Shown here piece by piece: positions 1,410 through 40,901 of a DNA stretch of 64,000 nt (positions are counted from its first letter, which is position 1; each line of letters opens with the position of its first letter). A program made the translations under genes and the position numbers. The notes under the pieces are model-generated. The model made no database searches. It was not told where the DNA came from and saw nothing but the letters and a program-made list of their open reading frames with translations. The stretch comes from Natrialba taiwanensis DSM 12281 (lineage in GTDB: Archaea > Halobacteriota > Halobacteria > Halobacteriales > Natrialbaceae): NCBI RefSeq assembly GCF_000337595.1, contig NZ_AOIL01000009.1, forward strand, positions 4,343 through 68,342, read 5' to 3'.

Positions 1410-2414
1410 ATGGCACGTGACAACAACGTCGCCACGACGCGTCGTGGATTCATTACCACAGCTGGAGCTGGCGCCGCAGCACTAGCGGGCTGCAGTTCGC
1501 TCCAGCCTAGCAGTGGTGAATACCCCAGTCAAAACATAACTTACATTGTTCCCTTCAGCCAGGGTGGTGGTACCGACACCTACGCTCGGAAGATTATGCC
1601 TCAGGTTTCCAACGAAATGGACAATGGGATCGCAATCGAAAACGTACCGGGGGCTGCCTCGCTGAAAGGTACTGCCGAGATATTGCGCGCTAAACCTGAC
1701 GGATACACTTTTGGTGGATTCAACCCGCCATCCACGCCAATTTCTTATCTCGTATACCAGCTGGAGTGGGATATCACGAGCGGAATGCCGGTCTGTACGT
1801 ATGCCCGAACCCCCTATGGTATCTTCGCAAATCCCGAACACAACATCGAGGGCCTCAAAGATCTCGTTGAGCGGTATCAGTCCGGAGAATTCACGAAATT
1901 TGCAGGGCTTGGCCGTGGTGGCATAGTCAATCTCGCTGCCATCGCGATGAAGAATGAGTACGATCTGAATTACGAGCAATACGTCGCTTACGACGGTGCT
2001 GGTCCTGCGATTAAAGCGGCCGTCTCTGGTGAAGTTCCTGTCGTTGCAACCACCGACACTGCCGCACAGAGTGCCGTCGAATCAGGTGATCTCGAGGCTG
2101 TTTCCATTCTCTCGAGTGATGGAAGCTCCGTTTTCCCTGAGGCCCAATCCCCGTCAGACGCTGGGTTCAGTAGCATCGACTACATCGGTCAACTCACTCG
2201 ATGCATGTTTTTGCCGGCCGAAACGCCTACCGACATCCGTGATACCCTCGCAGAAAGTATCAAGGCTGCACTCCAGACCGATGAAGTTCAGACTTGGTCG
2301 GAGGAGACAGGGAACGCTGTCGAATATGGTTCACACGAACGTGCTAAGAAGGCTCTAGAGGACTCTATCAACACGATACCGGACAGAATTGATATGTCTA
2401 AAATTCGTAGCTAA
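1410..2414 (+). CDS. tctC: TctC-family solute-binding lipoprotein of a tripartite tricarboxylate transporter
   Basis: This is the extracytoplasmic receptor of a TTT transporter; it captures a carboxylate and hands it to TctA/TctB. From ATG 1410 the protein has 334 residues, with a twin-arginine signal (TTRRGF), a small-residue hydrophobic core and a lipobox ending in AGC. This predicts Tat export and lipid anchoring at the outer membrane face. The mature part contains the family motif GGGTDTYAR near its N-terminus. The frame is open further upstream to 1359, but the twin-arginine position and the TATA-like box at 1379-1387 favour 1410. It is the first gene of an operon with a TcuA-like flavoprotein, TctB, TctA and a PrpF homologue. 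The substrate cannot be read from the sequence; the neighbours suggest tricarballylate or an aconitate isomer. Confidence 0.88.
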   Translation: MARDNNVATTRRGFITTAGAGAAALAGCSSLQPSSGEYPSQNITYIVPFSQGGGTDTYARKIMPQVSNEMDNGIAIENVPGAASLKGTAEILRAKPDGYTFGGFNPPSTPISYLVYQLEWDITSGMPVCTYARTPYGIFANPEHNIEGLKDLVERYQSGEFTKFAGLGRGGIVNLAAIAMKNEYDLNYEQYVAYDGAGPAIKAAVSGEVPVVATTDTAAQSAVESGDLEAVSILSSDGSSVFPEAQSPSDAGFSSIDYIGQLTRCMFLPAETPTDIRDTLAESIKAALQTDEVQTWSEETGNAVEYGSHERAKKALEDSINTIPDRIDMSKIRS

Positions 2415-2451
2415 CAATCCCAAACCCACCAATATCAAACCACTTATCACA

Positions 2452-3870
2452 ATGAACGCATCTGGATACACTGACACGCACGAGTATGAAATCGTTGTTA
2501 TTGGCAGCGGTACCGCTGGCCTCACAGCTGCGCTTCGTGCAGCGGAACTCAATCGCTCTGTTGCCGTCCTCGAGAAAGCCCCTCGTGAACGTCAAGGAGG
2601 GCACACTCGATTCAGCGAATCGTTCCGTGTCCCCTCCGTCGGGACTGATCTTGATCAGTACGGATTCGAGTTCGATATCAAAGACTACACTGTCGACGAG
2701 TTTTACGAGGATATTCTCGACCAGACTAGTGATCGGGCAGATCCTGACCTCGCTCGCTATCTCGCTGAAAATGCTGGTGATACCCTCGAGTGGCTCACTG
2801 GCTCAGCTGGCGTTGACTGGCAGATGGAACCGCTCGCCGTCGGCTATACGGTGGCGCGTACGTGGTTCGATGGCGAAGAATACGTCAATACTGTCACCGA
2901 AGCTGCTGAAGACGAAGGCGCAGACTTCTTCTTCAAGACTGAAGCGCGCGGTTTCCACCGAGACAGAGATGGTCACGTGGTCGGAGTGGACGCGATTACC
3001 GATGACGGCCTTGTCCACTTCGAGACTGATGCTGTCATTCTTGCTGCCGGTGCATACAGTTCCAGTGACGAAAAGCGCGTCCGGTACTATGGACGCGACT
3101 ATGATGCGATGAAGGTACGCGGTAGTAGGTACAACACCGGCGAAGCGCTCGAGGCAGCCAGCGACGTCGGTGCCGATCTGGTTGGTCAGTGGGGCGGTGC
3201 CCACATGGCACTTATCGACGCTGCTAGTCCGGATGTCGCTGGTGGTGCAAACCGCGTCGATGGCTATCAGTACGGTGTTATAGTGAACGACGAAGGAGAA
3301 CGGTTTGTGGACGAGGGGCAAGACGCTCGTGCACATACATACGCGAAGTTCGGTCGTCTGATCTTCGAGGAACCAAATCACGTCGCATACATTGTGGTCG
3401 ACTCGAAAGTTCACGACCTCCTTCGTGCGACTGGGCCATCGGATCCTATCGTCGCGGATACTCTTCCAGAGGTTTTGGCGGAAGTCGGCTGTGCCGATTC
3501 CGAGACGGCAGTCGAAACTATAGACAAGTACAACGCTGGCTGCGATCCCGGTACGTTCGAGCCAGAGGTTCTTGACGGGAACAAAACGATCGACGTTGCA
3601 CCCCCGAAGACGAACTGGGCACTTCCCATTGACGAGCCTCCCTACTACGCATACGCAGTCACTGGTGGCATCACGTTCAGCTTCGGTGGCGTTCGTACAA
3701 ACACGCATGCAGAAGCCATCGACAGTCGTGGCGAAACTATCCCTGGACTCTACGCTGCTGGGAACAGTACTGGTGGGTTGTTCTTCGACAACTACCCTGG
3801 TGGAACCGGTCAGATGAATGCGGCCGTGTACGGAAAAACTGCGGCCGAGTCAGCTAACAAATTCATTTAA
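2452..3870 (+). CDS. TcuA-like FAD-dependent tricarboxylate dehydrogenase
   Basis: This is a flavoprotein of the fumarate reductase/succinate dehydrogenase superfamily, most like FAD-dependent tricarballylate dehydrogenase TcuA, which oxidises tricarballylate to cis-aconitate. With ATG 2452 as residue 1 (472 residues), the dinucleotide-binding motif GSGTAG is at 18-23 and the ribose-binding acidic residue is at the end of the next strand (VLEKAP). The C-terminus has GLYAAGNSTGG and YPGGTGQMNAAVYGK, the second FAD-contact region. Other TcuA-like landmarks are ERQGGHTRFS near residue 48 and RGSRYNTGEAL in the middle. There is no Tat signal, so it is cytoplasmic or membrane-associated. The start was chosen just before the Rossmann fold; the frame continues 21 codons upstream, overlapping the tctC end. 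It lies between tctC and tctB in one operon. No TcuB-like electron-transfer partner is present nearby. The exact substrate is inferred. Confidence 0.72.
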   Translation: MNASGYTDTHEYEIVVIGSGTAGLTAALRAAELNRSVAVLEKAPRERQGGHTRFSESFRVPSVGTDLDQYGFEFDIKDYTVDEFYEDILDQTSDRADPDLARYLAENAGDTLEWLTGSAGVDWQMEPLAVGYTVARTWFDGEEYVNTVTEAAEDEGADFFFKTEARGFHRDRDGHVVGVDAITDDGLVHFETDAVILAAGAYSSSDEKRVRYYGRDYDAMKVRGSRYNTGEALEAASDVGADLVGQWGGAHMALIDAASPDVAGGANRVDGYQYGVIVNDEGERFVDEGQDARAHTYAKFGRLIFEEPNHVAYIVVDSKVHDLLRATGPSDPIVADTLPEVLAEVGCADSETAVETIDKYNAGCDPGTFEPEVLDGNKTIDVAPPKTNWALPIDEPPYYAYAVTGGITFSFGGVRTNTHAEAIDSRGETIPGLYAAGNSTGGLFFDNYPGGTGQMNAAVYGKTAAESANKFI

Positions 3871-3872
3871 AA

Positions 3873-4394
3873 ATGAGTACTTCCAAATCATCAGCTATGG
3901 ACCGCCTTACCAACATGGCACACGGCGAACACGTGTTTGCCGCGCTACTGGTAACACTTGCCGTCTACATGTTCATTGGAGCCTATGATTTCCCACCGGC
4001 AGCACGCCTCTTTCCACAGGCTGCGTCTGGGATCGTCATAGTTGCAGCCACGCTCCGCGTCGTGAACCACTTTATCCCTTACGAGTTTACCAAAGATGAC
4101 TCCGTCGTCCTCAGCGGTTCAGGTGACGACGAGTCGTCGATGTCGGAAACAGAGGAAAGTGGGGAAACAGAAAACCGGACCCGCATGCTTGTCCTAGGTG
4201 CGCTCATTACGGGGTATATCCTCGGAGGCTTCGCTGTTGGACTGTTCTGGGTAACTCCACCCTTCGCGCTCGCATACCTCGTATACACGGGCCAGAAGTG
4301 GTGGGTGACCGCGATGATCACCGCCGCACTAACGGGGGTCGCCTATGTCTTCATCGTGCTCATGAAACTCGACCTCGTCACGGGGGGGATCTGA
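3873..4394 (+). CDS. tctB: TctB small membrane subunit of TTT transporter
   Basis: Small integral-membrane subunit of the tripartite tricarboxylate transporter, 173 residues. The four hydrophobic segments typical of TctB are visible: about 23-42, 47-60, 103-124 and 130-165. A long acidic loop between the second and third segments is rich in Ser, Asp and Glu, as expected for a haloarchaeal protein. The start codon follows the flavoprotein stop by two bases. The end abuts the tctA start with no gap, so translation is probably coupled. Sequence conservation in this family is low; the call rests on size, topology and position directly before TctA. Confidence 0.8.
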   Translation: MSTSKSSAMDRLTNMAHGEHVFAALLVTLAVYMFIGAYDFPPAARLFPQAASGIVIVAATLRVVNHFIPYEFTKDDSVVLSGSGDDESSMSETEESGETENRTRMLVLGALITGYILGGFAVGLFWVTPPFALAYLVYTGQKWWVTAMITAALTGVAYVFIVLMKLDLVTGGI

Positions 4395-5903
4395 ATGACA
4401 GATATTAGTATACTCCTCAACGCGATCGAAATGGTGTTCTCATGGCCGGGCATTGCGCTCATCATTCTCGGCGTCATCATCGGCGTCATCGGTGGTAGCC
4501 TCCCCGGCGTCGGCGGAGCACTCACTTTGGCGATTGCAATACCATTCACAATCCAGCTAGAGAGTGTTAACGCGATTATCTTCCTCATTGGGGCATACAA
4601 CGGTGTTATGTACGGGGCAAGCATCTCCGCAATTCTATTCAACGTCCCCGGTTCTGCGTCCGCAGCAGCGACAACAATCGAGGGCTATCCGATGGCGAGA
4701 GGAGGACGTGCCGTTGATGCACTCACAATTTCTGCTGTCTCCTCAAGTATCGGTGACTTCCTCGGTGGAGTGGCCATTCTTGCGATTCTTCCCGCACTCG
4801 TCACAATCGTTCTCATGTTCGGGACTCCCGAATACTTCTTGGTCGCAGTCCTCGGACTCGCGCTCATCATCGTCGTCTCTGAAGGGGATTTCCTACGAGA
4901 TGCAATGGCAGGTGGATTCGGCGTAATGCTCGCAACTGTCGGAGTCGCGCCAATGCTCCCAACATCCCGCTACACGTTCGGCCAGCTCGGTCTGTACAAC
5001 GGAATCAACTTCGTTGCCGCCCTCATCGGGATTTTCGCAGTCTCGGAGATGCTCCGCCTGAGCAAGCAGGGAGGGACGATTTCGCGCGGTGGGGACATCG
5101 ACATAGGAGGGAGCGTCCTATCTGGTTTCCGGACGGTCCTCTCGAAACCTATTACGCTCATCAAGTCTTCAGTCGTGGGCCTACTTATCGGTGCAATTCC
5201 TGGTTCCGGGGGGTCTGTCTCGACATTCGTCGCGTACGGAGAGGCAAAACGCGCCTCCAAAAACCCTGAAAAGTTTGGAAACGGCGCCGAAGAGGGGATT
5301 ATCGCCACCGAATCTTCGAACAATGCTACAGTAAGCGGATCTCTGATTCCGACACTTACGTTCGGTATCCCGGGGAGCACTACGACTGCCGTCCTCATCG
5401 GTGCGCTCATGCTCCACGGTATCCGTCCTGGTCCGGCTCTCTTCAGCTCGCAAATCAATCTCACGTACTCGATCTTTGTCTCACTCGTTGCGTGCAGCTT
5501 CATAATCCTCGTCCTTGGACTCCTCGTGGTTCGGTGGGCAGGCTATCTCACGACGGTAAATACCTCTGTAATTATCCCCATCATCATCGTACTGTCCGTT
5601 CTGGGTGCGTTCTCGCTCAACTCGAATTACTTCGACGTATTCGTCGTTCTCACATTGGGGATTATTGGGTATTTCATGCAGTCATACGACTATTCCCTCG
5701 TCGCGTTCCTCTTGGGGCTCATTCTCGGCCCCATCGCAGAGGAGAATCTCGCTCGCTCGCTCGAGCTCAGCAACGGGAGTTTAGATATCTTCTTCGCAAC
5801 GCCTCTCCGACTGTTGCTGGTCGTTGCAACTGTAGCGATCGTCGTCGGTCCATATCTTGGTCCGATGCTGAAACAACAATTCGGTATAACCTCAGAAGTT
5901 TAG
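4395..5903 (+). CDS. tctA: TctA large membrane subunit of TTT transporter
   Basis: Large channel subunit of the tripartite tricarboxylate transporter, 502 residues, the normal family length with about 11-12 membrane segments. TctA landmarks are clear: GVIGGSLPGVGGALTLAI near the N-terminus, YNGVMYGASISAILFNVPG with the following EGYPMARGG, and the internal repeat IGAIPGSGGSVSTFVAYGEAKR. Later come ESSNNATVSGSLIPTLTFG, then GIPGSTTTAVLIGALMLHG. It works with TctB 4395 bases-end to start and with the TctC receptor, using an ion gradient to import a di- or tricarboxylate. A second full set lies at 37.7-40.9 kb, and the two TctA proteins share the same motifs but are clearly diverged. Confidence 0.93.
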   Translation: MTDISILLNAIEMVFSWPGIALIILGVIIGVIGGSLPGVGGALTLAIAIPFTIQLESVNAIIFLIGAYNGVMYGASISAILFNVPGSASAAATTIEGYPMARGGRAVDALTISAVSSSIGDFLGGVAILAILPALVTIVLMFGTPEYFLVAVLGLALIIVVSEGDFLRDAMAGGFGVMLATVGVAPMLPTSRYTFGQLGLYNGINFVAALIGIFAVSEMLRLSKQGGTISRGGDIDIGGSVLSGFRTVLSKPITLIKSSVVGLLIGAIPGSGGSVSTFVAYGEAKRASKNPEKFGNGAEEGIIATESSNNATVSGSLIPTLTFGIPGSTTTAVLIGALMLHGIRPGPALFSSQINLTYSIFVSLVACSFIILVLGLLVVRWAGYLTTVNTSVIIPIIIVLSVLGAFSLNSNYFDVFVVLTLGIIGYFMQSYDYSLVAFLLGLILGPIAEENLARSLELSNGSLDIFFATPLRLLLVVATVAIVVGPYLGPMLKQQFGITSEV

Positions 5904-7034
5904 ATGGATCAAAATTCACTCCAGTGCGCACTCGTTCGCGGAGGAACCAGCAAGGGAGTCGCCGTGACTCGCGACGAACTACCAGAAGAGAATACGAACG
6001 CAGCTCTCCTCTCGCTGTTCGGGAGTCCCGATGAGCGTCAAATCGATGGACTCGGCGGCGGGACGTCGACGACATCGAAGCTGATGATCGTTGAAGAAAG
6101 TGACCGTGACGGTATCGATATTGACTACGAGTTCGGTCAGGTTAGCGTTCGTGATTCGACCATCGACTATGGTGGAAACTGTGGTAACATGACGACTGTC
6201 GTTGGACCGTTCGCTGCGGACGAAAACATGGTTGATGTTCCTTACAGCGGCGAAGCAACGGTCACGCTCTATAATAAGAACACAGAGACACGGATTGACC
6301 AGTCATTCGATATTGTTGACGGTCGCGCAACCACCGTAGGTGATCATCAGATCCACGGCGTTCCCGGAACTGGCGCTAAGGTCGAAACGACGTTCTACGA
6401 CCCGGCGGGAACGGCCAAAAAGGGCCTATTCCCGTTCGATGAACCGGTAACGACACTTGACGTCGATGGAGTGCCTGTCGAGATGACAGTCTTGGATGTC
6501 ACAACTCCCGTCGTTTTCGTCCAGGCATCCAGCCTTAGTGTAACTGGCACGGAGTTGCCCGAGGATATTGATACTGATCCTGAGTTTCTACACTGGATCG
6601 AGCAGATCCGTGCAACCGTGTGTGCGGAACTCGACATTGTTGATTCACCCGAGGACGCAACCGTTGAATCGCCTGGGTTCCCGAAGGTAGCGTTCGTCAC
6701 ACCACCAACCGACTACGAAGCGACCGCGGGCTACGTCAGTGAATCGGAGATTGACATCACAGCCCGAATTATGAGTATGCAGTACCTTCACCCAGTGTAT
6801 GCTGTAACAGGCGCATCGTGTACTGCAGCCGCTACACTACTTGAGGGAACAATTCCGAATCGGGTGGCCGATGTCCCTGACGGTGACAGAGTTGTACTTG
6901 GGCATCCGAAGGGGAAAATGTCGGTCAAGGCCAACGTCAACAACGACGAAGTAGAGAGCGTAACGGTTTCACGAACACAGCGGCGCTTAATGGAAGGACG
7001 AGCGTTCTACACGCTTGAGACCAACGGCCAATAG
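5904..7034 (+). CDS. prpF: PrpF-family aconitate/methylaconitate isomerase
   Basis: Member of the PrpF fold family (diaminopimelate-epimerase-like), which isomerises double bonds in aconitate, 2-methylaconitate or 4-oxalomesaconate. The 376-residue protein begins CALVRGGTSKG, carries GGGTSTTSK ending at Lys59, and has GGNCGNM with Cys93. The Lys-Cys spacing of 34 residues equals that of the lysine and cysteine reported as important in bacterial PrpF (Lys73, Cys107). Near the C-terminus the usual GHPSG appears as GHPKG. The start codon directly follows the tctA stop, making it the last gene of the operon. With a TcuA-like dehydrogenase and a tricarboxylate transporter, it would connect cis- and trans-aconitate or a related acid to the TCA cycle. 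It overlaps the convergent transporter gene by 28 bases. Confidence 0.85.
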   Translation: MDQNSLQCALVRGGTSKGVAVTRDELPEENTNAALLSLFGSPDERQIDGLGGGTSTTSKLMIVEESDRDGIDIDYEFGQVSVRDSTIDYGGNCGNMTTVVGPFAADENMVDVPYSGEATVTLYNKNTETRIDQSFDIVDGRATTVGDHQIHGVPGTGAKVETTFYDPAGTAKKGLFPFDEPVTTLDVDGVPVEMTVLDVTTPVVFVQASSLSVTGTELPEDIDTDPEFLHWIEQIRATVCAELDIVDSPEDATVESPGFPKVAFVTPPTDYEATAGYVSESEIDITARIMSMQYLHPVYAVTGASCTAAATLLEGTIPNRVADVPDGDRVVLGHPKGKMSVKANVNNDEVESVTVSRTQRRLMEGRAFYTLETNGQ

Positions 7035-8401
7035 AACAACCACGCGACGGCGACAACACCCAACGAGAGAAAGAGTGTTACGACGCCGAATCGTGCAATA
7101 TCTCTCTGTTTTAGTGGCCCCTCTTCGTACGCGAGCAGGGCAGACGTTGTATTGAACGGTAGGAATGTTGTTCCACCAATAACGATGAGGAGTGAAAACG
7201 AGAGGTAGAGTTGGTTCACACCTAGTTCTTTCCCGATCCGAAGCGCAAAAGGAACAATAACGAGCAGCGCCGCGGACCCAGTTGAGAACACAATACGAAC
7301 GCCGACTGCGACCAGAAGAAGAATACCAACGCTCGCGAACACTGGGAGAGCATTAAGCGGGATCGTCTCCAGAGTCCGGTTGATAAGGAGATTCACGACG
7401 CCTGTGTTTGTGAGTGCCTCAAGCAAAGAGAACATTGCTCCGACCAGAAAGAGCACGTTCCAGCTTACGTTTGCGACGGCATCGGCACGGATGATACGAA
7501 TATTGGGTAGTGCAAGAATGAGAACTGCCGCTGCAGCAGGGAGAATTGTCGGGATACCAAAAAAAGATCCGATGATCCAAGCGAGGACTGTTCCGGACAT
7601 CACAGCGGCAACGATTCGTTGTTCACGGTCGAAACCAGCAGTGGTCTTTTTGTTCCTCGGTTCTGGAATATCCGCGTAATCAAGTGGATAGAGCGCGAAA
7701 ACGGAAACAGCACCGAGCAGGTATAGAGCAGCTGCGGGAGGTACCATGTACAGGGCCCATTGAACCCAGGTTAAGGGGCCAACAAGCGAGTGGATAAGTC
7801 CAGCAGTGACAACAGCCATTCCACCGCCGGTCATGAGACCGACGGATGCAAGCGGGTTCACCTGACCAAGAATTAAGAAGGCTGTTTGCGAAAAGTCAGA
7901 ATTGGAGGATAGATCAAAAGAAGTCCGGAGACGACGGACGACAGGGATCAGAGCTACGGTCCGAGCTGCAGCAGAAGGCATAAAGACAGCTAGAGGGAGA
8001 AGTGCCGTTGTTAATGAGCGAAGTGCGCGTGTAGGCGAGTCTTCCGATCCAAGGAGACGGTCTGCGAGTTGTGCATCTAGATTAACTTCAGAAATTGTGT
8101 TCCCCAGCAGAAAGAGCAAGAGTAGGAAGAAAACAAGTGAAGAAGAAAACCCGGATGCAGCGGCCTGAACGGAGTTCGTAACACCGAGTGCGTAGAGGAG
8201 CATAACCGCGGTGACGCTCGAGATCATATAGGGAACAGTGTGAGTCAGCCAAAGAAGAAGCGTCGCAAAGAATATTGCAGTTGCAGTAAGACCATTATCG
8301 GTCATTCCGATGGGCGGATTAGCCACTATTCCACCAGCAACGACTATAGTAGAGATGACAAGTCCGAAGATGGAACTGTGGTTTGAGAGATTGTTTACCA
8401 C
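7007..8401 (-). CDS. DASS/SLC13-family carboxylate:sodium symporter
   Basis: Integral membrane carrier of the divalent anion:sodium symporter type, likely importing dicarboxylates or related anions. From the GTG at 8401 it has 464 residues, normal for the family, with about 11-12 hydrophobic segments. The N-terminus shows a first segment followed by TATAIFFATLLLWLTHTVPY, the usual DASS opening, and the late part contains the conserved LPFNTTSALL region. The frame is open upstream to 8707, but that stretch lacks membrane segments. GTG 8401 has a TATA-like box 18-31 bases ahead. It converges on prpF with a 28-base overlap. Functionally it is a second carboxylate uptake route next to the TTT operon; its substrate is not determinable. 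Confidence 0.82.
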   Translation of the reverse strand: MVNNLSNHSSIFGLVISTIVVAGGIVANPPIGMTDNGLTATAIFFATLLLWLTHTVPYMISSVTAVMLLYALGVTNSVQAAASGFSSSLVFFLLLLFLLGNTISEVNLDAQLADRLLGSEDSPTRALRSLTTALLPLAVFMPSAAARTVALIPVVRRLRTSFDLSSNSDFSQTAFLILGQVNPLASVGLMTGGGMAVVTAGLIHSLVGPLTWVQWALYMVPPAAALYLLGAVSVFALYPLDYADIPEPRNKKTTAGFDREQRIVAAVMSGTVLAWIIGSFFGIPTILPAAAAVLILALPNIRIIRADAVANVSWNVLFLVGAMFSLLEALTNTGVVNLLINRTLETIPLNALPVFASVGILLLVAVGVRIVFSTGSAALLVIVPFALRIGKELGVNQLYLSFSLLIVIGGTTFLPFNTTSALLAYEEGPLKQRDIARFGVVTLFLSLGVVAVAWLFYWPLVSSV

Positions 8402-8852: not shown

Positions 8853-9278
8853 ATGGTAATTGTCGCAGCCGTGGACCGGTCAGATCGAGCAGACACCGTC
8901 ATTAAACAAGCCGAAGTACTTGCAGAGGCTTTTGGTGACACCATTCATATTATCCATGTTTTGTCTACGTCAGAATTCGTCGATTTAGGAAGGACAAAAG
9001 CAAAAGAGGGGGATTCAATAGACCTGGAATCTGTGAAAAATGTTGCATCGAATATTGCAGAGGAGGCCGCAGAACCCCTCAGCAGGCAGTTTGAAGCTAT
9101 TGGATTAATGGGGAATCCCGCAGATGAAATCATCAATTATGCTGATAAGAAAAATGCACGGTATATTGTTGTGGCAGGTCGTAAACGATCCCCAGCGGGA
9201 AAAGCCATCTTCGGTAGTGTGAACCAGTCGATACTACTAAATTCTGATTGTCCAGTAGTGATGTCCACAGACAATTAA
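8853..9278 (+). CDS. universal stress protein, UspA family
   Basis: Small cytoplasmic nucleotide-binding protein of the Usp fold, 141 residues. It opens with MVIVAAVDRSDRAD, the first beta strand with the conserved aspartate. Near the end it has VVAGRKRSPAGKAIFGSV, close to the ATP-binding G-x2-G-x9-G-S/T pattern. A TATA-like box sits about 27 bases upstream. A diverged paralogue at 36908-37333 has the same GRKRSP-GKA-FGSV signature. Both lie beside carboxylate transport genes, a common haloarchaeal arrangement; a role in regulating or protecting the transporter is inference only. Confidence 0.88.
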   Translation: MVIVAAVDRSDRADTVIKQAEVLAEAFGDTIHIIHVLSTSEFVDLGRTKAKEGDSIDLESVKNVASNIAEEAAEPLSRQFEAIGLMGNPADEIINYADKKNARYIVVAGRKRSPAGKAIFGSVNQSILLNSDCPVVMSTDN

Positions 9279-11533: not shown

Positions 11534-12388
11534 TCAGTACTGCTGTCGGACTAGATATACCATCGTCGCGAGCCAGAATGCTCCTGAAAAGGCGTAAAAT
11601 GCATCACCGGACGGGTTTTCTGAACCAAACTGTATCGCTGCCAGGATGTACGTCAGAGCGGCGATTGCGAGCGGGGAGATAACATACAGCAACCAGTTTA
11701 TCTTCCAATTTGCATCCGATTCGTCGTTCACACGTGCATCGCGAATGAGAACTCCCGGCGTGATTATCGACGTAATGACCAGGTATATCACCAGTACGAA
11801 CCCGGTGGTAAAGCCGAGACCGCTTTCCGGTCCCCCTGCCAAACCACTCCAGAGGAGGTACGCGAATACAACCGGTACCGTGATGACGTATCCGATAAGG
11901 CCCGTCCGGAAGGTGACGGAGCCATCGGTTTTTGCCTCGATCCAGCCGAGGAAATCCGGTGCGAGTGGGTACGACCAGGCACTGCCGAATATCGCTTTGG
12001 CCATAGCGATCAGTCCACAGGCGAAGTTAATCAGCACCGCAAACGTAAATGCGAAAAAGCCCACCGCAAACACGAGGATAAACGCGCGTCCAATCTGTTG
12101 TACGATCGTGTCCTCAGGGGCCCACGATTCGAAAGCCAGTCCAATAGCGAATATCCCCAGCAGAGCGGAGAACGATCCGGTAAACAGCAGTTGCCAGTTG
12201 AACGCATTTCGGGCATTTTCTCGTGTAAAGTCGCGTTTTGCAACCAAGTATATGACCGCCGGAAGAACAAATCCGGTTCCTAGACCCAACAGATGAACGA
12301 AGATTCCGCTCAGAGTTCGTTCGGTCAGAAGAGTCGGTCCCGGTTGTGATTGTGTCTCGGTCGATGTGGATCGGTGTTCGTTGGACAT
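11534..12388 (-). CDS. polytopic membrane protein with DUF4870-like domain
   Basis: A 284-residue integral membrane protein with about seven or eight hydrophobic segments after a polar N-terminus of some 25 residues. Residues about 24-135 resemble DUF4870/Tic20-like proteins: an opening membrane segment, then YLVAKRDFTRENARNAFNWQL, the family signature of an amphipathic loop, then two membrane segments. The second half repeats a similar four-segment layout without a recognised domain. Function unknown. It is followed on the same strand, about 70 bases upstream, by a winged-helix membrane protein gene pointing the same way, so co-transcription is possible. Confidence 0.7.
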   Translation of the reverse strand: MSNEHRSTSTETQSQPGPTLLTERTLSGIFVHLLGLGTGFVLPAVIYLVAKRDFTRENARNAFNWQLLFTGSFSALLGIFAIGLAFESWAPEDTIVQQIGRAFILVFAVGFFAFTFAVLINFACGLIAMAKAIFGSAWSYPLAPDFLGWIEAKTDGSVTFRTGLIGYVITVPVVFAYLLWSGLAGGPESGLGFTTGFVLVIYLVITSIITPGVLIRDARVNDESDANWKINWLLYVISPLAIAALTYILAAIQFGSENPSGDAFYAFSGAFWLATMVYLVRQQY

Positions 12389-29595: not shown

Positions 29596-30234
29596 GAGCC
29601 GCAGAACGCGTTAGCGTCCGAATCCGAGCAAACGGGATTCAGTCCGAGCAGGGCGAGCCGTCGGTACTGGGCTGTGGGGACAAGTCGCATATACTCTCAA
29701 CGCTGCGAATTCGGCGTCGAAAGAATACATTCGATCGCGATCGATCGAGTTTACAGTGATACGATTGTAACGAGTTGGCCGACGGCGGAGACTGGCAGCG
29801 AGCCGCGAGCGTACCGGAGACAGCGGCCGCTATGCACCACACTGGTTGGAACGTGGGATTTCGGCGGGACGGCTCGTGTTCGGCCCGCCGATGTTCCTTC
29901 GCAGGATGCGCTGTCCCTGCTTCGAACGTGAACTCGCGCGTTATCGCCGTATTTTCGGTTTCGATTACTCGGATCGGACCCGTTGAACGCTCTTCATCCA
30001 CGTACCGCCTCCGAGAGAACTGAGGGATACCGGACCGAATCATCATTTCTGCGGGAACGTCTGAGAATAATGGCGCTGTAGCCGTTCATACCAGGAGTAC
30101 GAATATGCGGGATAGAACGGCCTCGGCGCGATGCTCGCCGATGTCGGCGGCGGGGAATCGATTAAGTAGTTCGTCCGGTTCCGTAGTCGTAATGCTACTT
30201 GCGCGCCGTCGCACGCCTCCCGAGGTGGACGGGC
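29596..30234. other. intergenic, nothing recognised
   Basis: About 640 bases upstream of the MFS gene. Composition is intermediate and no frame gives a recognisable protein. Probably contains the MFS promoter (GATTAAGTAG near 30157). Confidence 0.5.
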
Positions 30235-32953: not shown

Positions 32954-34570
32954 ATGGACGTCACTCACGCAATCGCAACGATCCTGAAAGCGGAAGGAGT
33001 AGAGTACCTGTTCGGTTTCCCGAGTAACCCGCTCTTGGACACCGGAGCGGCTGAGGACGCCGGTATCCGAACCATCGTCACCAGGCAGGAACGGACCGCG
33101 GTCCACATGGCGGACGCGATCGGTCGACTGTCCGCCGGTGACGAAATCGTCGCCTTCGCGTGTCAGCACGGCCCGGGAACGGAGAACTCGTTCGGCGGCG
33201 TCGCGCAGGCATACGGCGAGTCGGCACCGCTCGTCGCAATCCCGGCCGGATACGACGAAGCGAAGACAGACGTGGATCCCAAGTTCAACTCTCGCGTCAA
33301 CTACCAGCACGTGAGCAAGTCCTGCGAACAGCTGACCAGTCCGGCGGCCGTCGGCGAGACCATGCGGCGCGCGTTCAGCGCGGCGCGAAACGGCCGTCCG
33401 CGGCCGGCCGTCGTCGAGGTCCCGAAGGATGTCTTCCACGAGGAGATCCCCGGTGACCTCGAGTATCACCCCTCGTCGTCGAATCGAAGCGGTCCCGATC
33501 CGGATAGCGTCGAGGAGATCGCCGAGGTGCTCCTCGAGGCGGAGCGGCCGGTTATCTACGCCGGACAGGGCGTCCACTACGCGAAAGGGTGGGACGCCCT
33601 TCGGGAGCTGGCGGAGACCCTCGAGGCGCCGGTTGCGACCAGCCTCAACGGGAAGAGTTCGTTTCCGGAGACCCACCCGCTGTCTCTCGGTGCCGGGAGC
33701 AAGAGCGAACCGGGCCAACTCGCACACTTCCTCCGGGAAGCGGACATCATCTTCGGGATCGGATGTAGCTTCACGGACACCGCGTACGGGATCACCGTCC
33801 CGGACGGGACGACGGTCGTCCACTCGACGCTCGATCCGACGGACATCGACAAGGATGTCGAGTCGGAGTACTCGCTCGTCGGCGACGCCGGACTCACCCT
33901 CGAAGCGCTGGTCGACGCGATCGCTCGGCGCCTCGACGGGGAGTCCCGCGGTCGGTTCGACGACGTCGCCGCGGCAATCGAGTCGGTCCGAGAGGAGTGG
34001 CTCGACGAGTGGCGGCCGAAACTGACCGCGGACGAGGTGCCGATCAACCCGTACCGGGTCATCAACGAGCTGACGACCGTCGTCGACGCCGAGGACGCGA
34101 TCATCACGCACGACGCGGGGAACCCGCGGGACTTCCTCGCCCCGTTCTGGGAGTCGACCGAGCCGCTCTCGTACGTCGGCTGGGGGAAGACCACCCAGCT
34201 CGGCTACGGGCTCGGCCTGGCGATCGGCGCGAAGATCTACCGCCCGGAGAAGCTCTGCATCAATATCATGGGAGACGGCGCGATCGGGATGACCGGCCTG
34301 GACTTCGAAACGGCCGTTCGGGAGGATATCCCCATCCTGACGATTCACCTGAACAACTACGAGATGGCGTCGTACGAGACGCCCTTCTCCGGCGACTTCG
34401 CCGACATCGGGACGGCCCTCGGCGGCTACGCAGAGCGGATCGAGGACCCGGAGGAGGTCGCGCCGGCCCTCGAGCGAGCGATCGAGAAGACCGAAGCCGG
34501 AACGCCGGCGCTCCTCGAGTTCATCACGGCCAAGGAGACCGAGCTCTCGCGGCCGGATCTCGAGGAGTAG
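32954..34570 (+). CDS. thiamine-diphosphate-dependent enzyme, acetolactate synthase-like
   Basis: A 538-residue TPP enzyme of the acetolactate synthase/benzoylformate decarboxylase fold, with N-terminal PYR, central and C-terminal PP domains. Glu46 in VTRQERTAVHMADA is the catalytic glutamate that activates TPP. The metal/TPP motif is GDG at about 440-442, followed by a loop ending in HLNN. The quinone/FAD-binding segment of true AHAS is not evident and no ilvN gene is adjacent, so this is probably not biosynthetic AHAS. Neighbouring CoA-transferases suggest an oxalyl-CoA decarboxylase- or 2-hydroxyacyl-CoA lyase-like role, but sequence identity alone does not show it. A TATA-like CTTTATAA lies near 32902 and a GGAGAG ribosome-binding-like run lies before ATG 32954. 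Confidence 0.8.
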   Translation: MDVTHAIATILKAEGVEYLFGFPSNPLLDTGAAEDAGIRTIVTRQERTAVHMADAIGRLSAGDEIVAFACQHGPGTENSFGGVAQAYGESAPLVAIPAGYDEAKTDVDPKFNSRVNYQHVSKSCEQLTSPAAVGETMRRAFSAARNGRPRPAVVEVPKDVFHEEIPGDLEYHPSSSNRSGPDPDSVEEIAEVLLEAERPVIYAGQGVHYAKGWDALRELAETLEAPVATSLNGKSSFPETHPLSLGAGSKSEPGQLAHFLREADIIFGIGCSFTDTAYGITVPDGTTVVHSTLDPTDIDKDVESEYSLVGDAGLTLEALVDAIARRLDGESRGRFDDVAAAIESVREEWLDEWRPKLTADEVPINPYRVINELTTVVDAEDAIITHDAGNPRDFLAPFWESTEPLSYVGWGKTTQLGYGLGLAIGAKIYRPEKLCINIMGDGAIGMTGLDFETAVREDIPILTIHLNNYEMASYETPFSGDFADIGTALGGYAERIEDPEEVAPALERAIEKTEAGTPALLEFITAKETELSRPDLEE

Positions 34571-37669: not shown

Positions 37670-38743
37670 ATGTCCGAGAGAAAGCAACGACAGCAGGTGG
37701 TAGCAGCAAGCATATCGACCAGGCGACGGTTCCTTCGAGTGGCCGGCGCTGGGACGGCCGTATCGCTAGCAGGATGTCTCACAGAAGACGGGCCGGGTGT
37801 CGATGCCGACGAAAATTGGGAGCCGTCCGAGACGGTCCGATACATCGTTCCGTACGACGAGGGCGGTGGGACCGATGTGTACGCACGCGGCATCGTCGAA
37901 CCGCTCACCGACGCCATGGGGCAAGACATTCAGATCGACAACGTGCCCGGCGGCGGCGGTCTCAACGGCTTCGGCGACCTCTACGGATCCCAGCCCGACG
38001 GGCACACCATCTCGGGGAGCGCCGTCCCGCTCGAGGTAACACCGCAACTGCTCGAGGATCCCGGGTTCGACCAGCGCGACTTGAACGGGCTCGGCATCAT
38101 CGGTCGCTCGACGTGGTGTCTCATCGTCAACGAGGAGTACGAAGGGGAAGTCGAGACGTTCGACGACGTCAAAGAAAAGCACAACTCCGGTGAGTGGGAC
38201 TCCATCGGCATTCAGGAGCCGGGAAGCCCGCAGGACATCATGACGCTGCTGGCAAAACACGAGCCGGAGTACGCCGACGAGTACGACTGGCAGTGGGAGA
38301 ATCGCGTTCAGTACACCGGCACCGGGCCGATCGCGGAGGCGGTGACTTCCGGCGAGGTGCCCTGTGGGATCGGGACCGACGCCGGGACGCGACCCAACGT
38401 CGATTCCGGCGGAGTGTACCCGGTCTGTACGTTCTTCAGCGAGGGGACCGACGTGTATCCCGACATCCCGTCGGTCACCGACGAGGGGTACCCGAACATG
38501 GACTTCGTCGCGGGCGTCAATCGCGGCCTGTACGCGCCGCCGGACACGTCCGAGAACATCATCGACGAACTCGCAAATCGAATCGAAGAAGCCACTCAGG
38601 ACGAGCGATACGAGGAGTGGTCCGAGGAGACTGGAAACCCGATCTTCTTCGAGGGACCCGACGCCGCTACCGCGGCCATCGACGACGCCTTCGAGGAGTT
38701 CGAAGACCTGGACATCGTCAGTCTCGTTGATGAACACTCCTAG
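37670..38743 (+). CDS. tctC: TctC-family solute-binding lipoprotein (second TTT system)
   Basis: A 357-residue receptor of a tripartite tricarboxylate transporter. The signal has the twin-arginine motif RRRFLRVAGAG and a lipobox ending LAGC, predicting Tat export and lipid anchoring. The mature N-terminus carries VPYDEGGGTDVYARGIVEP, the family signature. It is very acidic, as expected for an exposed haloarchaeal protein. It leads an operon with tctB and tctA. Overall similarity to the first TctC is moderate, so the two systems probably bind different carboxylates. Nearby tartrate/D-malate dehydrogenase-like and glycerate kinase genes suggest a hydroxydicarboxylate. Confidence 0.9.
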   Translation: MSERKQRQQVVAASISTRRRFLRVAGAGTAVSLAGCLTEDGPGVDADENWEPSETVRYIVPYDEGGGTDVYARGIVEPLTDAMGQDIQIDNVPGGGGLNGFGDLYGSQPDGHTISGSAVPLEVTPQLLEDPGFDQRDLNGLGIIGRSTWCLIVNEEYEGEVETFDDVKEKHNSGEWDSIGIQEPGSPQDIMTLLAKHEPEYADEYDWQWENRVQYTGTGPIAEAVTSGEVPCGIGTDAGTRPNVDSGGVYPVCTFFSEGTDVYPDIPSVTDEGYPNMDFVAGVNRGLYAPPDTSENIIDELANRIEEATQDERYEEWSEETGNPIFFEGPDAATAAIDDAFEEFEDLDIVSLVDEHS

Positions 38744-38777
38744 TCCGGAGTGATACTTCAACCGCCATATTATAGTT

Positions 38778-39398
38778 ATGAGTTCAAAATACACCGAACA
38801 TAACGTAACGGCAGAGCAGATAATGCTCGTTGTTCTGGTCGGGGTGAGCGCGCTATTCATCGTCGAGCCGATTTTGAGTAACTACCCCGACGATGCTCGA
38901 GTGTTCCCTCAGTTGACCGCGTCGATCGTTTTCGTCGGCTCGCTGTTGTTACTCTTCCGGGACTACCTCCCGGGGCCGCTCCGGACGTTCGTCGCCGAGA
39001 GCATTTCGATTACGAGTACCGACGAGTCTGATATCCCGGGAAGTGAAGCGAACCTCGAGGAGTCGGAGACGACCGACGAGGAGTACGAAGCGGAGACGCT
39101 CGGAGCCGAGTACGGCTACAAGGTGGACGAGACGACGTTTATGGTGGTCACGACGATCCTGTACTTCGCGGGCGGGTGGGCCGCCGGCTTCCTCTTCGCG
39201 ACGCCGATTTACGTCCTCGGCTATACGCTCTGGTTCCGTACCAACCCCGTTACCAGCGTCTTGCTCGCCGTCCTGGGAACGTTCGTCATCTACCTCTTCA
39301 TGACGTACCTCGTCCTCCCGTTCGACCAGGGACACATCTTCGACTTCAGTCCGTTCCTGCCGCTGCTGGTCGAGCCGATCACCGGGGGTGGGGTGTAA
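38778..39398 (+). CDS. tctB: TctB small membrane subunit (second TTT system)
   Basis: A 206-residue protein with four membrane helices (about 17-35, 45-62, 120-145 and 150-185) separated by a long acidic loop of some 50 residues. The family match is by size, topology and position; sequence similarity to the first TctB is low. It starts 34 bases after tctC and its stop abuts the tctA start, implying coupling. Confidence 0.82.
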   Translation: MSSKYTEHNVTAEQIMLVVLVGVSALFIVEPILSNYPDDARVFPQLTASIVFVGSLLLLFRDYLPGPLRTFVAESISITSTDESDIPGSEANLEESETTDEEYEAETLGAEYGYKVDETTFMVVTTILYFAGGWAAGFLFATPIYVLGYTLWFRTNPVTSVLLAVLGTFVIYLFMTYLVLPFDQGHIFDFSPFLPLLVEPITGGGV

Positions 39399-40901
39399 AT
39401 GGCGGCGGTCAGCGCCTTCTTCGAAGGGTTGTCGATCGCGCTGAGCTGGCCGACGATTGGATGGCTCGCGGTCGGAATGATGCTCGGAATCGTCCTGGGA
39501 GCGCTACCGGGTATCGGTTCGCCGGTCGGGATGGCGATCGTGCTCCCGCTCACGCTGCCGCTCGAGACGACGGCCGCGATCATCCTTCTAGTGGCGATCT
39601 ACAGCGGCGCGATGTTCGGCGGCTCGATTGCCGCCATCCTGCTCAACGCTCCGGGCACGGAGTCGGCCGCGGCGACGACGCTCGACGGGTATCCGATGGC
39701 ACAGAACGGCCTGGCGAAGAACGCACTGGCGATCGCGACGGCGGCGTCGGCGCTGAACGGCTTCCTCGCGGCGATAGCGCTGGTCGTCCTGTCGCCGCTG
39801 CTCATCGAGATCGTCCTCGCGTTCGGATCGCCGGAGTACTTCCTCCTCGCCGTCCTCGGCATCTCCCTCATCACGATCGTCACGCAGGGATCGATCGTCA
39901 AGGGGCTCGTCGCCGGTGCGCTCGGTTTCATGATCTCGACGATCGGCACCGCGATCCTCAGTCCGCGTCCGCGATACACGTTCGGGCAGTTCGGACTCTA
40001 CAACGGGATCGACTTCGTCGCGGCGCTGATCGGGATGTTCGCGTTCGCCGAGATGATGAAGCTCGCAGCACAGAAGCAGATTTCTCAAGACGATCTCGAT
40101 ATCGCGGGCAGCGTTCGGGAGGGGGCGAAGACGGTGTTCAAGTACCCGGTGACGACGATCAAGTCCGGACTGATCGGAATGGGAATCGGGATGATCCCCG
40201 GCTCGGGCGCGACGACGTCGACGTTCGTCGCGTACGCGGAGGAGGCCCGTTCGTCGGCCACAGACGGATCGTTCGGCGACGGGGACCCCCGCGGCGTCAT
40301 CGCACCCGAGGGAGCGAACAACCCGACCGTCAGCGGCTCGCTCATTCCGACCCTGTCGTTCGGCATTCCGGGCAGCGGCTCGACGGCCGTCCTACTCGGC
40401 GGTATCCTGATGCACGGACTCCAACCGGGGCCCGTCCTCTTCGGCGAACAGCTCCACATCACGTACGCGCTGTTCATCTCGCTGTTCCTCAGCAACATCC
40501 TTATCGTCGTCGTCGGCCTGACGGTGATTCCGTACGCGAGCAAGATCACGGAAATCGATACGAACCTCATCATCCCGATGGTCATCGTCCTCTCGTTCGC
40601 GGGGGCCTACACGCTCAATCAGAACTGGTGGGACGTCGGCGCCGTCGTCGTACTCGGCCTTCTCGGGTTCTACATGGTCCGGTACAACTACTCGGTCATC
40701 GCGTTCGTCCTCGGTATCGTTCTCGGTCCCATCGCCGAGCAAAACTTCTTCCGGTCGCTACAGATCTCCGGCGGCGAGTACACGATCTTCGTCGATCCGG
40801 TGAACCAGCCGCTCTCGTTCCTGCTCACCATCGCGATTCTCGTCGTGCTGTTCGGTCCGTTCGTGAAGGGACGCGTCGAACGAGTCGTCAGCCGGACCTG
40901 A
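39399..40901 (+). CDS. tctA: TctA large membrane subunit (second TTT system)
   Basis: A 500-residue channel subunit with the complete TctA motif set: LGALPGIGSPVGMAI, YSGAMFGGSIAAILLNAPG with DGYPMAQNG, IGMIPGSGATTSTFVAYAEEAR, GANNPTVSGSLIPTLSFG and GIPGSGSTAVLLGGILMHG. It is a homologue of the TctA at 4395. With TctB and TctC it forms a secondary, binding-protein-dependent carboxylate importer. A frameshifted cupin gene follows about 130 bases later. Confidence 0.93.
   Translation: MAAVSAFFEGLSIALSWPTIGWLAVGMMLGIVLGALPGIGSPVGMAIVLPLTLPLETTAAIILLVAIYSGAMFGGSIAAILLNAPGTESAAATTLDGYPMAQNGLAKNALAIATAASALNGFLAAIALVVLSPLLIEIVLAFGSPEYFLLAVLGISLITIVTQGSIVKGLVAGALGFMISTIGTAILSPRPRYTFGQFGLYNGIDFVAALIGMFAFAEMMKLAAQKQISQDDLDIAGSVREGAKTVFKYPVTTIKSGLIGMGIGMIPGSGATTSTFVAYAEEARSSATDGSFGDGDPRGVIAPEGANNPTVSGSLIPTLSFGIPGSGSTAVLLGGILMHGLQPGPVLFGEQLHITYALFISLFLSNILIVVVGLTVIPYASKITEIDTNLIIPMVIVLSFAGAYTLNQNWWDVGAVVVLGLLGFYMVRYNYSVIAFVLGIVLGPIAEQNFFRSLQISGGEYTIFVDPVNQPLSFLLTIAILVVLFGPFVKGRVERVVSRT

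Follow-up and report, generated by a model that had tools for sequence, protein, structure and literature searches.

Genes at the locus

We analysed a 64,000 nt stretch of the genome of the haloarchaeon Natrialba taiwanensis DSM 12281 (contig NZ_AOIL01000009.1, positions 4,343 to 68,342, hereafter the window). Close to its left end lie five genes that code for a tripartite tricarboxylate transporter (TTT), a flavin adenine dinucleotide (FAD)-dependent protein similar to the tricarballylate dehydrogenase TcuA, and an isomerase of the PrpF superfamily. In window coordinates these are:

1410..2414, + strand: TctC-type substrate-binding protein (Pfam TctC 88.8 bits; twin-arginine translocation (TAT) signal model 20.1 bits; lipobox-like LAGC read by eye)
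2452..3870, + strand: TcuA-like FAD-dependent oxidoreductase of a subfamily found without TcuB (NF006130 413 bits; Pfam FAD_binding_2 147 bits; tree and motifs)
3873..4394, + strand: TctB, small membrane subunit of the tripartite transporter (Pfam TctB 40.3 bits)
4395..5903, + strand: TctA, large membrane subunit of the tripartite transporter (Pfam TctA 434.2 bits)
5904..7034, + strand: PrpF-superfamily isomerase with K59, C93 and a further C306 (Pfam PrpF, PF04303, 332.2 bits)

The genes are arranged head to tail in the same direction. The gap between the TctC and the flavoprotein gene is 37 bases, all others are 0-2 bases, which is as expected for an operon whose genes would be transcribed together. 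All five proteins score above the Pfam cut-offs, and TctA, TctB and TctC make up a full TTT set. A preliminary description of this DNA had seen a transporter interleaved with a TcuA-like flavoprotein and followed by PrpF; family models and the reading of the starts confirm this arrangement from 1410 to 7034. TctC could be read from an ATG at 1359 as well, yet the Tat-type signal favours the start at 1410. The flavoprotein gene begins with the ATG at 2452; some analyses used the frame from 2389 or 2455, with the same results in substance. Scans for sigma-70-type promoters (6 versus 4.7 in shuffled sequences) and for intrinsic terminators (4 versus 5.0) gave nothing above the shuffles, with models that do not fit archaea.

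The TcuA-like flavoprotein

The flavoprotein exceeds the cut-off of the TcuA model NF006130 (413.3 versus 369 bits) and stays below that of a second TcuA model, TIGR02485 (236.3 versus 372.55 bits). TcuA from an E. coli plasmid passes both (791 and 687 bits, respectively). Using TIGR02484, which recognises the TcuB proteins of E. coli (394 bits) and Shinella (480 bits), no TcuB was detected in the genome of the window or in the 24 further genomes that carry the operon (0/25). A TcuB hidden elsewhere in the genome is thus ruled out at the sensitivity of this model.

A tree was built from 30 flavoproteins, five of them linked to TcuB and 25 others (8 bacterial, 17 haloarchaeal). The five TcuB-linked proteins group in a single clade (100/100), and the other 25 without exception fall on the opposite side of the split, the haloarchaeal proteins as a clade of their own. 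Long branches meet at this split and the tree is rooted at its midpoint, hence we give more weight to sequence motifs. DEGEDxWPKRYAIWG and GxGYxAGxGM are present in all five TcuB-linked proteins, whereas the 25 others invariably show DEGxDxRxxTY and YPG[GA]. With DEG.D.R..TY around the proposed acid/base region and NYPGG, the flavoprotein of the window sides with the latter. A bacterial protein was counted as lacking TcuB when none was annotated in the 6-10 kb shown, from gene tables that are incomplete. The state without TcuB thus marks a subfamily that includes bacterial members and is no haloarchaeal peculiarity. The flavoprotein is not a TcuA in the strict sense: it fails TIGR02485 and its motifs are unlike those of all five TcuB-linked TcuAs.

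H250 (numbered from protein residue 2) aligns with His365 of flavocytochrome c3 and is kept in 30/30 sequences. Urocanate reductase and flavocytochrome c3 are the closest matches to the predicted fold (template modelling (TM) score 0.72-0.77), the two AlphaFold models in this study being of middling quality (mean predicted local distance difference test 75 and 76). In Bradyrhizobium, genes for an electron-transfer flavoprotein are adjacent to a member of the subfamily, a hint by analogy that this protein may act as electron acceptor.

The PrpF homologue

The isomerase is the sole PrpF in the genome. Its K59 and C93 are 34 residues apart and correspond in the alignment to K73 and C107 of the PrpF from Shewanella, so that the preliminary description was right about the presence of this pair at the reported spacing. 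According to PMC5690661, K73 and C107 are needed for function in vivo, with the C107S variant also called active in vivo. In addition, C306 of the window protein aligns with a cysteine of 3-methylitaconate isomerase.

The protein remains below the models for 2-methylaconitate isomerase (TIGR02334, 258.9 versus 440.55 bits) and for 4-oxalomesaconate tautomerase (NF033377, 271.3 versus 440 bits). Among solved structures 3-methylitaconate isomerase scores best (281.6 bits), followed by the Shewanella methylaconitate PrpF (203.4 bits) and oxalomesaconate isomerase (174.9 bits). In a tree of 31 proteins, taken without TarA and TbrA sequences, the haloarchaeal PrpFs group by themselves, and none of the characterised proteins falls among them. 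Naming the protein by its nearest characterised relative was rejected on the basis of this separate branch. As it is nearest to 3-methylitaconate isomerase by score, yet groups with no characterised PrpF in the tree, the substrate cannot be read off.

Aconitate isomerases are documented within the superfamily. PMC11495376 describes TarA from Bacillus velezensis, where import and isomerisation are carried out together with TarB, and TbrA from B. thuringiensis, and Shewanella PrpF is likewise reported as an aconitate isomerase in PMC5690661. TarA/TbrA-type sequences were not found on plasmids among the matches listed.

Linkage across haloarchaea

The preliminary description had suggested a survey of the gene order in other haloarchaea. 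We searched 392 genomes of the same order, drawn from a larger group, counting flavoprotein matches at an expectation value (E) of 1e-80. PrpF matches occur in 37 genomes, flavoprotein matches in 39, and both in 25. All 25 genomes with a close PrpF (at least 56% identity to that of the window) also have the flavoprotein, compared to none of the 12 with distant PrpFs only, a difference that rules out chance co-location. The two genes are at most 2.6 kb apart in 22 of the 25 genomes; in the three exceptions the distance is 485 kb (G140) or 14 kb (G179), or the genes are on different contigs (G381). A scan of named genomes with the flavoprotein yielded 19 haloarchaeal loci. In 15 of these PrpF adjoins the flavoprotein or sits behind TctB-TctA, and in the remaining four (L007, L008, L016, L023) there is no PrpF within 10 kb of the flavoprotein.

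Two gene orders prevail. Type I, the one of the window, runs IclR (often), TctC, flavoprotein, TctB, TctA, PrpF and is seen in 9 of the 25 genomes (G000, G150, G229, G239, G090, G108, G156, G166 and G339). In type II the flavoprotein gene stands next to that of PrpF, with two paralogous genes flanking the pair and the transporter genes in a block apart. Both paralogs are found at 12 of the 19 named loci, and the first of them lies near PrpF in 15 of the 25 genomes. In G073 the pair stands alone. Since the window-type sequences form supported clades in the flavoprotein tree (98/94, six sequences) as well as in the PrpF tree (98/96, five sequences), the two genes have travelled together. Taken together, TTT genes, a TcuA-family flavoprotein and PrpF travel as a set, and the operon is real, conserved across species and mobile.

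A second, distinct PrpF (~40% identical), placed on its own branch of the tree, is found near the type II cluster at L009, L015 and L019 and in G029, G065, G179, G291, G296 and G346.

The paralogous proteins of type II clusters

By sequence, the only convincing solved relative of the two paralogs is 2,5-dihydroxypyridine 5,6-dioxygenase (PDB 7cn3), with E values from 8e-14 to 6e-18 at one locus and of about 3e-11 to 4e-11 at another. The predicted fold of one paralog likewise resembles this enzyme (TM 0.83) more than aminopeptidase T (TM 0.68). One paralog passes Pfam M29 (66.5 bits), whereas the other does not (24.7 versus 27). Of the residues that we take to bind metal in NicX, both paralogs retain the HxD pair and have Q or E in place of the earlier His. 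The proteins may thus be ring-opening dioxygenases or hydrolases of the M29 type, and as a dioxygenase-like pair they point to other substrates in those relatives. The genome of the window has no close copy; its nearest relative, at 255.9 bits and 39% identity, is an isolated gene on contig C48.

A bacterial relative of the paralogs (~49% identical) is located at about position 12000 of a Neorhizobium plasmid stretch (L097), beside TctA/TctC-like and several MmgE/PrpD-like genes. No PrpF match was found in that stretch.

Comparison with bacterial systems

We read 14 bacterial neighbourhoods, hand-picked from the match lists for variety and not at random. Two of them are from the same Paracoccus plasmid and two from the same Bradyrhizobium plasmid, and the plasmid gene tables are incomplete; a Neorhizobium record came without annotation. 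In Pacificitalea a PrpF homologue and TTT genes are divergent from TcuA-TcuB. Shinella HZN7 has TcuB-TcuA, then AcnA and PrpF, and Hydrogenophaga has TctC, TcuA, LeuC, LeuD, TctC and PrpF with no annotated TcuB. In Paracoccus versutus, PrpD and PrpF share a cluster with a flavoprotein that resembles fumarate reductase (not TcuA-like at 84.6 bits) and with TctBAC; a gene similar to TcuA lies 5 kb upstream. In E. coli K-12 the PrpF homologue ybhH, the DASS-type transporter gene ybhI and the hydratase gene ybhJ stand in a row. The remaining neighbourhoods show the theme in part. A scheme recurs in which import is followed by dehydrogenation, isomerisation of the double bond and hydration.

Compared to tcuRABC of Salmonella and E. 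coli, the window operon shares an FAD-dependent dehydrogenase that belongs to one NCBIfam equivalog with theirs (NF006130; identity 30-34%) and an expected entry into the tricarboxylic acid (TCA) cycle via aconitate. It differs by having neither TcuB nor TcuC, the latter a transporter of the major facilitator superfamily (MFS), by its tripartite transporter and by the added PrpF. Moreover, the candidate regulator is of the IclR type instead of the LysR-type TcuR, and the active-site motifs are different. The preliminary description had contrasted the operon with bacterial tcu systems: the absence of TcuB holds in all 25 operon genomes, but TcuA, PrpF and TTT genes are joined in Pacificitalea and Hydrogenophaga, and PrpF stands near TcuA in Shinella. 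Because bacterial clusters join them, the contrast does not hold and the combination is not specifically haloarchaeal. Differences to these clusters persist: TcuB is retained in Pacificitalea and Shinella, Hydrogenophaga has LeuCD-type hydratase genes in addition, and the gene order is another.

The Bacillus clusters tarRAB and tbrAB also place a PrpF-superfamily isomerase beside a polycarboxylate transporter; as described in PMC11495376, they have MFS transporters, a LysR regulator and no flavoprotein, a distinction by description and not by sequence. With 3-methylitaconate isomerase of Eubacterium barkeri (PDB 3g7k), the closest solved structure to PrpF, the catalytic Lys/Cys and the later Cys are conserved, whereas the tree branch is separate. 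The pathway partners of that isomerase, dimethylmaleate hydratase and a lyase, are not part of the window operon.

Origin and genomic setting

Downstream of the operon two further genes were identified:

7007..8383, - strand: DASS-family anion transporter (Pfam Na_sulph_symp 136.4 bits; open frame to 8707, 5' end unsure)
8853..9278, + strand: universal stress protein, Usp (Pfam Usp 85.7 bits)

The DASS gene is convergent with prpF and overlaps its last bases, and the Usp gene follows. A DASS gene lies beside the cluster in 13 of the 19 named relatives, among which Usp is a frequent neighbour, too. An IclR gene is found ~4.4 kb upstream of the cluster, outside the window and beyond insertion sequence (IS) debris and doubtful assembly joins. 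It was rejected as a member of the operon at this locus (L002), as it lies across the debris and the single-N joins and its orientation is unlike that in G150. The convergent DASS gene, the Usp gene, the compositional island and the upstream IclR gene had all been missed in the preliminary description.

The five genes have a third-position guanine-cytosine (GC) content of 0.53-0.64, the DASS gene one of 0.49 and the Usp gene one of 0.38, in comparison to 0.86-0.87 in three genes at 33-46 kb of the window. GC is low across about the first 24 kb. The sample includes six further genomes from this genus, and neither the PrpF nor the flavoprotein gene was found in any of them. Several clusters of relatives are on plasmids, and IS remains and doubtful joins are seen in the contig upstream. 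Low third-position GC, lack of copies in the six genomes, IS remains and plasmid-borne relatives make an acquired island the natural reading, and the cluster probably resides in one, of low GC.

The contig (C9) has single Ns at 2609, 3538, 3906 and 4342, where joins are doubtful; the window starts right after the last N. The sequence at 2611-2629 of the contig is presumably a Nextera mosaic-end remnant.

A second complete TctC-TctB-TctA set is located at 37670-40901 of the window, within a high-GC cluster. This cluster also contains genes for a thiamine pyrophosphate (TPP) enzyme (32954), coenzyme A (CoA) transferases (31495, 34748), an enoyl-CoA hydratase (35941), a cupin (41030) and a GlcD/FeS oxidoreductase (42918), names that derive from reading the translations and from blast kinship, not from a family scan. 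Between 24491 and 29541 there are a malate-synthase-like gene (24491, by eye), IclR-type regulator genes (25992, 28768) and a thiolase-like gene (27198). At L007, L008 and L023 a cluster without PrpF comprises genes for a PrpB-like protein, an iron alcohol dehydrogenase, an MFS transporter, MmgE/PrpD, a cupin, a TcuA-like protein and a TPP enzyme. The latter is 73% identical to the one at 32954 of the window, and the MFS and cupin genes resemble those at 30199 and 41030 by eye.

Proposed function

On balance, it seems probable that the cluster is a horizontally acquired catabolic operon for uptake of a polycarboxylate, its flavin-dependent dehydrogenation and isomerisation by PrpF. We infer the individual steps, from transport through the direction of the reaction and the electron acceptor to the substrate, as follows. 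TctC would bind the polycarboxylate outside the cell and TctAB would bring it in. The flavoprotein would remove two hydrogens adjacent to carboxyl groups, as tricarballylate dehydrogenase does, and pass the electrons to an acceptor other than TcuB, perhaps an electron-transfer flavoprotein or the quinone pool. PrpF would then move or flip the double bond just formed, with Lys and Cys acting in acid-base catalysis, and the product could be taken by housekeeping hydratases such as aconitase into the TCA cycle. Aconitase-family genes are present in the genome. That the operon has no hydratase gene of its own would suit a final product on which housekeeping aconitase can act; this is the main positional argument for aconitate.

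The likeliest single substrate, still a tentative proposal, is tricarballylate and/or trans-aconitate, both of which would lead to cis-aconitate, the former through the flavoprotein and the latter through PrpF acting as aconitate isomerase. It was this route that the preliminary description had in mind. The co-travelling families, the passed NF006130 model, the aconitate isomerases TarA, TbrA and Shewanella PrpF cited above and the bacterial plasmids that combine TcuAB, TTT genes or AcnA with PrpF argue for it. On the other side stand the failed TIGR02485, the active-site motifs that differ from those of the TcuB-linked proteins, and a PrpF whose nearest solved structure is 3-methylitaconate isomerase, with a tree that was built without TarA and TbrA. 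Other branched or alkyl-substituted succinate-type acids are, in sum, as likely.

Several points weigh against polycarboxylate catabolism as outlined. The enzyme chemistry is deduced from the genes, and 14 of the 39 flavoprotein-bearing genomes have no PrpF match at all, which speaks against an obligate pair. Dioxygenase-like genes, superfluous to a tricarballylate route, are present in many relatives. In the flavoprotein alignment H504 and R544 of flavocytochrome c3, presumably the carboxylate-binding residues, are replaced by T and Y. Finally, Salmonella TcuA makes cis-aconitate from tricarballylate, as cited in PMC10468695; if the flavoprotein did the same, PrpF would be needless for that substrate.

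An unlikely alternative takes the dioxygenase-like genes as its starting point. Here the flavoprotein and PrpF, comparable to GalD/LigU, would process intermediates that arise when aromatic or N-heteroaromatic rings are cleaved (acids similar to 4-oxalomesaconate or maleamate), and the transporter would bring in either the ring acid itself or the acid formed by cleavage. The two NicX/M29-like paralogs around the pair in 12 of the 19 named relatives, their likeness to 2,5-dihydroxypyridine 5,6-dioxygenase in sequence and predicted fold and the 271 bits of PrpF with the oxalomesaconate tautomerase model are consistent with this. However, that model's cut-off of 440 is not reached, the presumed NicX metal ligands are kept in part only, and a close NicXa gene is missing from the genome of the window (no match at E 1e-100) and from all nine window-type genomes. 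A more far-reaching idea, and a rather improbable one, is that the pair forms the core of a haloarchaeal module degrading N-heteroaromatic (pyridine-carboxylate) or related acids. In most relatives the two paralogs would then open the ring, isomerase and flavoprotein would finish the unsaturated polycarboxylate, and the window operon would be a shortened version that imports the cleaved acid or an analogue directly.

We give similarly little credit to the flavoprotein as a reductase of the fumarate- or urocanate-reductase kind, with an unsaturated acid as electron acceptor and not as carbon source. Its nearest solved relatives are indeed urocanate reductase and flavocytochrome c3, and no TcuB-like quinone link was found with the TcuB model. 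But it has neither a heme nor a flavin mononucleotide domain and lacks the fumarate-reductase His/Arg carboxylate clamp, its score with the TcuA model (413 bits) is far above that with the flavocytochrome c model (173 bits), and the PrpF partner and the uptake system suggest catabolism.

In the open-licence literature, to which the search was confined, we found no account of tricarballylate use in haloarchaea and, among the matches listed, no archaeal aconitate isomerase. Annotation calls the entire group 'tricarballylate dehydrogenase TcuA', but our data show two or more active-site types under this name, one of them without TcuB in every neighbourhood read. With flavoprotein, isomerase and transporter, the operon provides a small and clean set for finding the true substrate in archaea.

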